Source: Flaviaestuariibacter flavus (lineage in GTDB: Bacteria > Bacteroidota > Bacteroidia > Chitinophagales > Chitinophagaceae). From it: a stretch of DNA of 64,000 bases. Positions 39,759 to 41,757 of this stretch are shown here, in pieces. Every line of letters starts with the position of its first letter. The stretch's first letter is position 1. A model generated the notes under the pieces. It made no database searches and had not been told where the DNA came from. It saw only the letters and a program-made list of their open reading frames with translations. Both the position numbers and the translations under genes were made by a program. The DNA lies in assembly GCF_004337505.1 (NCBI RefSeq), contig NZ_SJZI01000009.1:1-64000 (forward strand), written 5' to 3'.

Positions 39759-40232
39759 TTAGAACTTTACTTGAACTTTTGTTGTTTTAATATCGGTAAA
39801 CAGGATAGTCTCCTGCTTCATTTCTTTCTTTTTGCCCTTACCGGCCTCGGTTTCCACCACGATGCCGTCTTCGGTGGCGGCGGTGAGCTTGCCTTCAAGC
39901 CGGGTGCCGGCCTCGTCGGCGAGGGTCACCTCCACGTAACGGCCCACGTTCTTGGCATACTGGCGGTGCAGCTTCAGGGGTTCATCCACGCCGGCCGACG
40001 ATACTTCGAGCGAGAAGTTGCCGTCGGGGAAGAGGCCGCCTTCCTCGAGCTGCTTGTACAGCTTGCGGTTGTACTGCACGAGGGCAGACAGGGGCAGCCC
40101 TTCATCGCTGTCGAGAAACACCTTGATGTTGTTGGTGGGCTTGATGCGCACGTCCACCAGGAAGTGTTTCGGGTCTTCGATGAGGCCTTCGATCTGCGTT
40201 TTCAGGGTCTCGATCAGGTTCTCTGTTGTCAT
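39759..40232 (-). CDS. rimP: Ribosome maturation factor RimP
   Basis: RimP helps assemble the 30S subunit. The protein has 157 residues with the two-domain pattern: HFLVDVRIKPTNNIKVFLDS, then FSLEVSSAGVDEPLKLHRQY, the most conserved RimP motif, and a C-terminal SH3-like part (LEGKLTAATEDGIVVE). The start at 40232 (MTTENLIETLKTQ) is preferred; an upstream in-frame start at 40298 lies before a promoter-like box. First gene of the rimP-nusA-infB operon. Confidence 0.94.
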   Translation of the reverse strand: MTTENLIETLKTQIEGLIEDPKHFLVDVRIKPTNNIKVFLDSDEGLPLSALVQYNRKLYKQLEEGGLFPDGNFSLEVSSAGVDEPLKLHRQYAKNVGRYVEVTLADEAGTRLEGKLTAATEDGIVVETEAGKGKKKEMKQETILFTDIKTTKVQVKF

Positions 40233-40285
40233 AGTATAAAAGAAGAAGGGAACGGCCACGTTCCCTTCATTCGTCAAATCCGGCA

Positions 40286-40293
40286 CGAAAGTA
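40286..40293 (-). promoter_or_regulatory. Possible -7 box for the rimP operon
   Basis: Minus-strand TACTTTCG differs from TAnnTTTG at one position. It lies 54 bases before the rimP start and is the best candidate seen. The stretch 40299-40545 is otherwise a degenerate GGTTTT/GGTTC repeat tract with no gene. Confidence 0.3.
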
Positions 40294-40551
40294 AGCAAAA
40301 AGGCCTATTCATTCCAAAACCTTTTGGGAGGTTTTTGCAGGTTTTAAAGGGTTTTTCACGGTTCGGGAGGGTACAGTGAGGTTTTAGGGGGTTCTAACGG
40401 TTTTGGAAGGTTCCCGCGGGTCCTGATGGTGCCTGGTTTTTAAAGTTCGGGCTATGCGCCGGGGGCTGCGACCGGGGGAAAAGTTAATAATGAGCCGAAA
40501 ACGTAAAAGCTCAAAACCGTAAAACGCCGAATCGGGTACCTTTGGGTGGCT

Positions 40552-40806
40552 ATGCTCGCTGTACTTTTCTACATATTCCTCGCCTACCTGCTTTTCCGCT
40601 TTGTTTTCGGCTTCCTGGTCCCGATTATCCGCACCACGCGCCAGGTAAAGCGGGGCTTCCGGGAAATGAATGAGCGGATGGGCTCCTTCGGCGGTCAGCA
40701 CCCCGAAGATCTCCACTCGGCGCAGGCTCCCGGCCAGCGGAGCCAGGTAAATTCCAAGGCCCCTTCCAAAGACGACTATATCGACTTCGAGGAAATCAAG
40801 GAGTAA
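40552..40806 (+). CDS. DUF4834 small membrane protein
   Basis: An 84-residue protein with one N-terminal transmembrane helix (AVLFYIFLAYLLFRFVFGFL), a basic juxtamembrane segment (IRTTRQVKRGFREMNERMG) and an acidic C terminus ending DDYIDFEEIKE. This is the DUF4834 pattern, confined to Bacteroidota and usually sited near tRNA or ribosomal genes. Function unknown. The ATG at 40552 is used; a GTG two codons earlier is possible. Confidence 0.78.
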   Translation: MLAVLFYIFLAYLLFRFVFGFLVPIIRTTRQVKRGFREMNERMGSFGGQHPEDLHSAQAPGQRSQVNSKAPSKDDYIDFEEIKE

Positions 40807-40840: not shown

Positions 40841-40882
40841 GGATCTCGGATCTCGGATCTCGGATCTCGGATCTCGGATCTC
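40841..40882. repeat. Perfect 7-nt tandem repeat (GGATCTC x6)
   Basis: GGATCTC occurs six times head to tail, directly upstream of the tRNA 5' exon and followed by ATCGGACATCCGACATCGG, a small palindrome-like stretch. Confidence 0.85.
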
Positions 40883-40965
40883 GATCGAAATCGGACATCC
40901 GACATCGGAGATCACCAAATTCTCTTTCGGATCCTTAGCTCAGTTGGTTAGAGCGGCTGACTCAT

Positions 40966-41673
40966 CAAGGATTGTTCTTTGATATTCTGTATTTTGAAAG
41001 AAAGCTTTACGATGGCACCTAGAATATGCGTTGTTTGCGCGACCCCGATAAGCGGTCAGAAGGTGAAATACTGCAGCAATGCATGTAAACAAAAAGACCA
41101 CTATCACCGGGTGAAGCAGCAAACAACCACGTATCATTCTCAAACGATCCGCTCATTGCGGAGGAAGCTACAACTCGTGGAGATGTTTGGTGGAAAATGT
41201 GATGCGTGTGGTTATGATAAAAACCTGGCAGCATTACATTTTCATCATATCGATGCGAACAATAAAGCGTTTAAGTTAGATGTACGTTTTCTATCGAACC
41301 GAACATGGGAAGCAATCATAAGCGAAGCTCAAAAATGCAGATTACTTTGTTCCAATTGCCATTCAGAGTTACATCACCCTGAACTGGCTCTTGATAAAGT
41401 TCAAAGAATGATCAGCGGTGCCGCCGGCACGAAATTGCCGGATGGGATAGGGGTTAATTCAGGGAAGCCTTCCTTTTTGCAAACGCAGAAAGATGGTAAT
41501 CCTGAGCCAAGCAGGACGAATGGTTAGAAGAGTAGTCCTGAAGGTGCAGAGACTAGGAAGTGCGGAAACCAGCCAATAAGCTTCCAATAACGCCCCTCAC
41601 CTGACTGCTCCGCATTAAGCGGAATAAAAGGTGGTGAGATAGTCCAACTACTTCGCGAAAGCGGAGGAAAGTG
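40966..41673 (+). ncRNA. Group I intron (IC3-like) in the tRNA anticodon loop
   Basis: A 708-nt insertion lies directly after the anticodon U36. It obeys group I rules: the 5' exon ends in U, the intron ends in G (41673). Core elements in order: IGS GTG at 41418-41420 (pairs with exon CAU), P2 hairpin CCGGCA/TTGCCGG, P element AATTCAGGGAAG (41456), Q element AATCCTGAGCCAAGC (41498), R element GTGCAGAGACTAGG (41544), S element GAGATAGTCC (41636), and a P9 stem CTTCGC-GAAA-GCGGAG (41651-41666). The IGS and insertion site equal those of the Azoarcus tRNA-Ile(CAU) intron. The endonuclease gene fills the P1 loop. Confidence 0.87.
41012..41527 (+). CDS. Intron-encoded HNH homing endonuclease
   Basis: A 171-residue protein. 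Residues 6-25 form a Cys4-like zinc motif (CVVCATPIS...YCSNACKQK). The HNH core follows: CDACGYDKNLAALHFHHID near residue 70 and LLCSNCHSELHHPE near residue 115, with the metal-binding Cys pairs and catalytic His. Such enzymes cut intron-less alleles and spread the intron. The ATG at 41012 follows an AGAAAG stretch. The last 37 codons or so overlap the ribozyme core (P1 to P6), so the C terminus is shaped by RNA structure. The region is more AT-rich than the flanking genes. Confidence 0.85.
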   Translation: MAPRICVVCATPISGQKVKYCSNACKQKDHYHRVKQQTTTYHSQTIRSLRRKLQLVEMFGGKCDACGYDKNLAALHFHHIDANNKAFKLDVRFLSNRTWEAIISEAQKCRLLCSNCHSELHHPELALDKVQRMISGAAGTKLPDGIGVNSGKPSFLQTQKDGNPEPSRTNG

Positions 41674-41715
41674 AATCAGCGGGTCGTGGGTTCAAGTCCC
41701 TCAGGATCCACCAAC

Positions 41716-41744
41716 AAAAAGGGCTGCCCAACGGCAGTCCTTTT
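41716..41744. terminator. Terminator after the split tRNA
   Basis: AAAAAGGGCTGCC-CAAC-GGCAGTCCTTTTT, with A and T runs on both sides, serves the tRNA and probably the convergent gene ending at 41758. Confidence 0.85.
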
Positions 41745-41757
41745 TCATTTCCGGCAT

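Follow-up and report, generated by a model that had tools for sequence, protein, structure and literature searches.

A group I intron with an HNH reading frame inside its P1 helix interrupts a presumed tRNA-Ile2(CAU) gene of Flaviaestuariibacter flavus

How can a tRNA be spliced when the helix that defines its splice site must close over a whole second gene, whose codons supply one of the helix strands? This question is raised by a tRNA gene of Flaviaestuariibacter flavus, which we analyzed within a 64,000-nt stretch of contig NZ_SJZI01000009.1 (the window). A sequence-only reading of the window had proposed that a group I intron with P, Q, R, and S elements, a guide sequence (IGS) GTG, and a terminal G separates U36 from A37 in a CAU-anticodon tRNA gene; the reading suggested an Rfam covariance search as a check, attributed the large size of the intron to its ORF, and viewed it as a subgroup IC3 intron in an unusual host. 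The intron, its site, its sequence elements, and the reason for its size are borne out by our analysis, which adds two points: the ORF lies inside P1, and the gene appears to be that of the Ile2 (lysidine) tRNA.

With introns allowed, ARAGORN found one tRNA spanning 40929-41713, with two exons around a 708-nt insert; the joined exons form a 77-nt cloverleaf with encoded CCA. Without the intron option, ARAGORN did not detect the split gene; with it, the program set the boundary one base too early and labeled the anticodon "Gln(ctg)." The covariance search (cmscan) matched RF00028 at 41278-41667 with 65.2 bits (gathering score, 50; E = 2.8e-14), and the sole other Rfam match in the window was a tRNA-Asn. 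That the match starts inside the ORF is an artefact, because the ORF splits the 5' domain of the ribozyme. All of P, Q, R, S, the IGS, and the terminal G are present, as are a P1 with U.G at the 5' splice site, a P3-P8 core, and P7; on these features we classify the insert as a group I intron (Table 1).

Table 1. Positions in the window of the split tRNA gene, its intron, and predicted structural elements
Feature	Position	Strand	Basis or remark
5' exon of presumed tRNA-Ile2(CAU), ends at U36	40929..40965	+	ARAGORN, empty-site comparison
P1 5' strand, anticodon CAU plus first intron C, pairs with 41417-41420	40963..40966	+	unchanged in 12/12
Group I intron, 708 nt	40966..41673	+	Rfam RF00028
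P1 extension 5' strand, 13 bp, two G.U; contains boxA-like GTTCTTTGA (40974-40982)	40970..40982	+	
HNH endonuclease ORF, 171 aa, in P1 loop	41012..41527	+	PHROG HNH family, predicted model
P1 extension 3' strand	41401..41413	+	inside HNH codons 130-134
P1 3' strand	41417..41420	+	IGS GTG 41418-41420, within Gly136-Ala137 of HNH frame
P2 hairpin	41424..41441	+	5/6 pairs changed on both sides
P3 (41450-41453 with 41593-41596), encloses P4-P6 and P7 5' strand	41450..41596	+	helix counts
P4 (41459-41463/41501-41505), P5, P6 (41512-41517/41535-41540)	41459..41540	+	helix counts
P7 (41551-41555/41640-41644), guanosine site	41551..41644	+	unchanged in 12/12
P7.1-like hairpin, between P7 and P3'	41556..41585	+	4/5 pairs changed on both sides
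P8	41598..41633	+	helix counts
P9 with GAAA loop	41651..41666	+	helix counts; loop in alignment
3' exon, A37 to encoded CCA	41674..41713	+	ARAGORN, empty-site comparison
Intrinsic-terminator-like hairpin 3' of tRNA	41716..41745	+	fold -19.5 kcal/mol, 0/200 shuffles

We counted 11 helices in 12 of the 13 family introns (one ORF-less member, L209, was left out). Shuffling lowered the share of paired cells from 88.2% to 79.6% (0 of 500 shuffles reached the observed value), and sliding lowered it to 31 to 57%; 23 pairs were changed on both sides where 17.5 were expected (4/500); the number of further pair types in these 12 introns was unremarkable (57 versus 53.3; 78/500). The ten helices besides the P1 extension were kept in 78 to 100% of cells, with compensatory change chiefly in P2, P6, P7.1, and P9. 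Judged by this comparison, the ribozyme signal is not due to chance.

The insertion site was fixed by comparison with the genus. The upstream neighbor gene is present in 18 of 18 genus genomes; 10 of the 18 matching loci were taken, one of them from the own genome. Seven of the nine remaining loci contain an uninterrupted tRNA gene reading ...GACTCATAATC..., and no tRNA was found within the stretch examined at the other two (L214 and L219). Around the junction, one of the nine (L211) matches the window exons in every base, which places the intron exactly between U36 and A37; the boundary is set by these empty sites together with P1, with its U.G at the splice site, and the terminal G.

Separate genes for an initiator tRNA(CAU) (L012) and an elongator tRNA-Met(CAU) (L020) are present in the own genome, which also encodes TilS (165 bits; cut-off, 93.6). 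By elimination, therefore, the split gene is taken as tRNA-Ile2, in which C34 becomes lysidine. An exact pattern for the intronless Ile2 gene occurred once in 15 of the 18 genus genomes scanned, twice in one, and not at all in either the own genome or G975. The own genome is a draft (85.8% complete) and could be missing a further Ile2 copy. The interrupted gene, seemingly single-copy, appears to be one that the bacterium needs for AUA decoding.

The 171-codon ORF within the intron matches PHROG 3106, an HNH family (E = 2.1e-22), and residues H78, H79, N115, C116, and H117 are invariant in 14 sequences. A predicted model places strands at 75-79 and 109-113 and a helix at 114-121, with pLDDT block means of 81 to 96 over residues 61-120 and an overall pTM of 0.49; the HNH motif thus falls in a predicted ββα-metal fold. 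Searches for that fold gave weak matches: Pfam reported no HNH family for the ORF, a PDB profile search gave one match (E = 0.037), and Foldseek gave nothing below E = 0.001, its best matches being CBASS Cap5 and T4 endonuclease VII (E = 0.07 to 0.13). Among three Hymenobacter copies, dN/dS was near 0.1 (dN, 0.07 to 0.12; dS, 0.76 to 1.14), two of the more distant pairs yielding no usable dS; by this measure, the HNH gene is under purifying selection. The 3' end of the ORF overlaps the P1 extension, the IGS, P2, and strands of P3, P4, P5, and P6, and its codons GGT GCC cover the guide. The frame runs into P3-P4 (GVNSGKP, 151 to 171 aa) in 6 of 11 introns and ends near P2 (139 to 142 aa) in 5, a length similar to that of phage forms (137 to 146 aa). 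As the coding end is shared with ribozyme strands, we infer that the splicing fold and translation must compete.

The guide lies at intron nucleotides 453-455, 452 nt downstream of the 5' splice site, which puts the HNH ORF inside P1. Intron nucleotides 5-17 form the 5' strand of the P1 extension, and P1, a 3x3 internal loop, and the extension together fold with -16.5 kcal/mol when a short linker replaces the loop. Scored in the window's register of the general alignment, the extension was only 60% paired, because its strands shift by one base among relatives; we used a strand-by-strand test in its place, on 12 of the 13 members (again leaving out L209). Own strands paired with a mean of -11.4 kcal/mol, versus -7.3 for re-dealt strands (0 of 20,000 as low), and with just one Hymenobacter intron the result was unchanged (0 of 20,000). 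The own partner was the best of 12 in seven introns, and the other five had two to five better partners. The three Hymenobacter introns have a weaker extension, with the own partner ranked 5, 5, and 4 and foreign strands fitting better. Across the 12 introns, we conclude from these pairings, the P1 extension covaries. ORF-less L209 has a short extension, GACAGTT/AATTGTC, closing a 7-nt loop.

We found 12 relatives, ten with an HNH in the same place and two without. A two-sequence HNH profile run against GTDB contigs gave 10 loci, all in Bacteroidota (Flavisolibacter, Emticicia, Runella, three Hymenobacter, and four further MAGs), nine of which have the same split gene. The exception, L082, has an ORF-less 380-nt intron and an HNH relative truncated to 78 aa (1764-2000) about 100 nt 3' of the tRNA. 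The other ORF-less intron, L209 (273 nt), was found by its junction pattern, and one ORF-bearing member (L048) by a search of the order. The junction pattern occurred in 2 of 395 phylum genomes (the own copy and one ORF-less copy) and in 1 of 294 family genomes, the own genome counted in both; at the protein level, a scan with a threshold of E = 1e-20 through 395 genomes of the class returned the own genome alone. As sampled here, the family is rare and patchy, and none of the matches listed in the open-access PMC literature has a title on it.

Taken together, these sequence data make it very probable that the locus is a mobile group I intron in tRNA-Ile2(CAU) that carries an HNH gene in its P1 loop and homes as follows. 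In the transcript, the anticodon CAU would pair with the guide GUG far downstream, and the 13-bp extension would join the P1 strands across the loop containing the HNH gene. Guanosine would attack after U36, and the exons would be joined with A37 directly after the anticodon; with lysidine added by TilS, the spliced tRNA would read AUA. Only unspliced RNA or excised intron could serve as message for the HNH protein. In the window, its coding end doubles as the 3' strand of the extension, the guide, and strands of P2-P6, so that a translating ribosome and a folded ribozyme should not coexist on one molecule. The most likely targets of the HNH are intronless tRNA(CAU) genes, which it would cut near the anticodon; the intron would then be copied in during repair. 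Because codons of the gene form one P1 strand, splicing of a seemingly single-copy tRNA would compete with expression of a homing endonuclease.

Where the HNH came from is a separate question, on which phage genomes bear. Five viral contigs (L083-L087) encode HNHs of the same protein family, 56 to 60% identical to that of the intron, with a tRNA(CAU) gene 58 to 68 nt away in each case. The five loci represent three lineages, given the near-duplicate pairs L083/L084 and L086/L087; the HNH of L083 has a tRNA-Arg gene closer still (6 nt). Unlike the intron HNH, the five phage HNHs are free-standing, with a coding end that shares no ribozyme helices: Rfam gave no over-threshold intron at L083-L087. 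A wider profile scan of viral contigs returned the same five contigs. HNH matches occurred in 430 annotated phage records, six of which were inspected, and blastn of the intron core against annotated phages gave no match. The position of these HNHs, and of the more distant ones below, next to tRNA genes suggests endonucleases tracking a target tRNA. It fits the collaborative-homing route described in PMC3984707, and we regard it as quite possible, at somewhat below even chances, that an intron at this site, at first ORF-less, acquired in its P1 loop a free-standing phage HNH already aimed at tRNA(CAU) genes. Same-site ORF-less introns exist in L209 and L082 and, according to ARAGORN, in phage L147; L209 may equally represent a loss. 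Ten more distant phage HNH loci speak against this origin, in that just two adjoin tRNA(CAU) (LR756504, at 69 nt, and S-SRM01, overlapping), the other eight overlapping or adjoining tRNA Ile GAT, Asn, Tyr, Thr, or Glu genes. Resolution is poor in the trees of the HNH (18 of 31 ORFs) and of the core, which give no root for the direction of transfer. The set at hand comprises free-standing phage HNHs at tRNA(CAU), same-site ORF-less introns, and composite introns, and it makes the proposed route directly testable in bacterial tRNA genes.

Some phage tRNA genes are themselves split by group I introns. A core-motif scan covered 80 of at least 120 stretches; in 8 of these 80 phage loci, and in none of the remaining 72, ARAGORN delimited a tRNA that encloses the motif. 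The split tRNAs (Thr, Asn, Lys, CAU, and Leu) are on IMG/VR contigs (L102, L110, L114, L126, L137, L139, L147, and L158), and HNH genes lie 15 to 116 nt from four of them (L102, L110, L126, and L158). Phage introns tend toward protein genes, according to PMC3984707.

A simpler history, which we consider unlikely, has an intron that still splices while its HNH no longer drives homing, inherited vertically with occasional loss. It would account for the window and Flavisolibacter copies being nearest neighbors in both the HNH and core trees and, as read by eye, preceded by the same gene end, for the clustering of the three Hymenobacter copies, and for the two ORF-less members. A shared locus is likewise expected under homing, and purifying selection on the HNH and the scatter among family and phylum genomes described above speak against descent alone. 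That the insertion is dead or misassembled and does not splice is scarcely credible: the assembly is a draft and splicing is deduced from sequence, but 11 ORF-bearing members occur in separate genomes with covarying ribozyme helices, the upstream gene and tRNA are syntenic with the genus, and the assembly contains no intronless Ile2 gene.

Several known systems come close to the mobile intron favored here. The Azoarcus intron interrupts tRNA-Ile(CAU) at U36|A37 with IGS GUG, is assigned to subgroup IC3, is about 205 nt long, and is not known to contain an ORF; neither it nor the IC3 pattern is known to include P7.1. The window intron shares the kind of tRNA, the site, and the IGS, and has GAAA in its L2 and L9 loops; it differs from the Azoarcus intron in its length, the HNH ORF in P1, the 13-bp P1 extension, and the P7.1-like hairpin. 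Because that hairpin is present and covaries, the IC3 membership and the homology to the Azoarcus intron proposed by the earlier reading are only putative. The Azoarcus intron is also named in PMC3984707.

As to the host, Bacteroidota stands (the nearest relative is a Chitinophagaceae MAG), and "unusual" is too strong: of 396 genomes in the order, 34 have RF00028 matches and 28 of these exceed the cut-off, so the surprise is moderate. By ARAGORN and Rfam, 29 other loci include 10 tRNA-Leu(UAA), 12 initiator-like tRNA (four read by eye), and 4 tmRNA genes. ARAGORN labels L035-L039, L043, L044, L047, L049, L052, and L055 as tRNA-Leu(CAA) with an intron; on reading, L039, L047, and L055 resemble initiator tRNA-fMet genes with the break between U33 and C34. 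The L039 ORF matches PDDEXK_5 (E = 1.1e-45) and PDB 2ost (E = 1.5e-53), and L055 and L046 have frames that resemble it by eye. A Synechocystis tRNA-fMet intron, said to have been described by Bonocora and Shub in 2001, reportedly encodes an endonuclease of the PD-(D/E)XK type; it thus differs from the window intron in both endonuclease and host tRNA, and similar fMet introns are those of L039, L055, and L046. In L032, L033, L034, and L042, the group I intron match overlaps the 3' part of the tmRNA match. Group I introns in tmRNA are known in the class Bacteroidia; they occupy T-loop sites, homing endonuclease genes (HEGs), sought as LAGLIDADG, occur in 36 of 883, and those mapped lie in P7.1 or after P9 (PMC11915505). 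They share with the window intron the phylum and a structural-RNA host gene, and differ in their T-loop sites and in these HEGs.

The 5' strand of the P1 extension contains a boxA-like motif. GTTCTTTGA occurs once in the window, adjacent to the 5' splice site, and among 30 of the 41 own tRNA loci only beside a tRNA-Ile/Ala pair (L007:1756), which we infer to be the 16S-23S rRNA spacer; the intron copy thus matches the boxA of the genome's own presumed rRNA spacer. Of 13 introns, 7 have an exact copy, L074, L081, L082, and L209 keep part of the motif, and L048 and L080 lack it; the ATG follows within a few nucleotides 3' of the motif in 6 of the 10 other ORF-bearing introns (L074-L079). Phage loci L083-L086 contain 11 exact copies, 6 of which have a tRNA gene no more than 30 nt away. 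Among 22 other ARAGORN-bounded tRNA introns of the order, the motif is on the intron strand in one (L054) and in none of the 21 others, which are not in CAU-Ile tRNAs.

We cut back a reading of the motif as boxA alone, since it pairs with the HNH coding end. An idea of dual use was kept, because the three Hymenobacter introns retain the 5' strand though its partner has become CAGCGAA, and because the first G is mostly in a G.U pair or a bulge. The losses and partial copies just listed, and the rarity of the motif among other tRNA introns, speak against it. For E. coli, PMC10250234 gives a proposal in which NusB-bound boxA keeps boxC close to the polymerase until the trailer has been transcribed, with a role in the leader-trailer helix of pre-16S RNA. 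There, as in the intron, an anchored strand awaits a distant partner; the intron motif differs in adjoining a 5' splice site, in that its NusB site is putative, and in being missing from L048 and L080. By analogy, and as a doubtful conjecture, a putative boxA/NusB/S10 complex might tether the 5' strand of P1 to the polymerase while about 430 nt, mostly the HNH gene, are transcribed, and then release it for pairing. The same nine bases would serve as protein site and helix strand; tethered RNA would be translated into HNH, and paired RNA would yield spliced tRNA. If true, this would be a new way of guiding co-transcriptional ribozyme folding; the plain alternative is that GTTCTTTGA is kept since it is paired with conserved codons.

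The intron at L054 (1422-2235) is in a tRNA-Leu(UAA) gene, is 727 nt long, carries the motif about 10 nt inside, and has by eye an HNH-like ORF in its 5' part. Genes neighboring the split tRNA in the window encode RimP (39759-40298, minus strand) and a small DUF4834-like protein (40546-40806), whose match is below the Pfam cut-off and which is present in 18 of 18 genus genomes. Immediately 5' of the tRNA, a 7-nt tandem repeat, GGATCTC, is present in six copies at 40841-40883.
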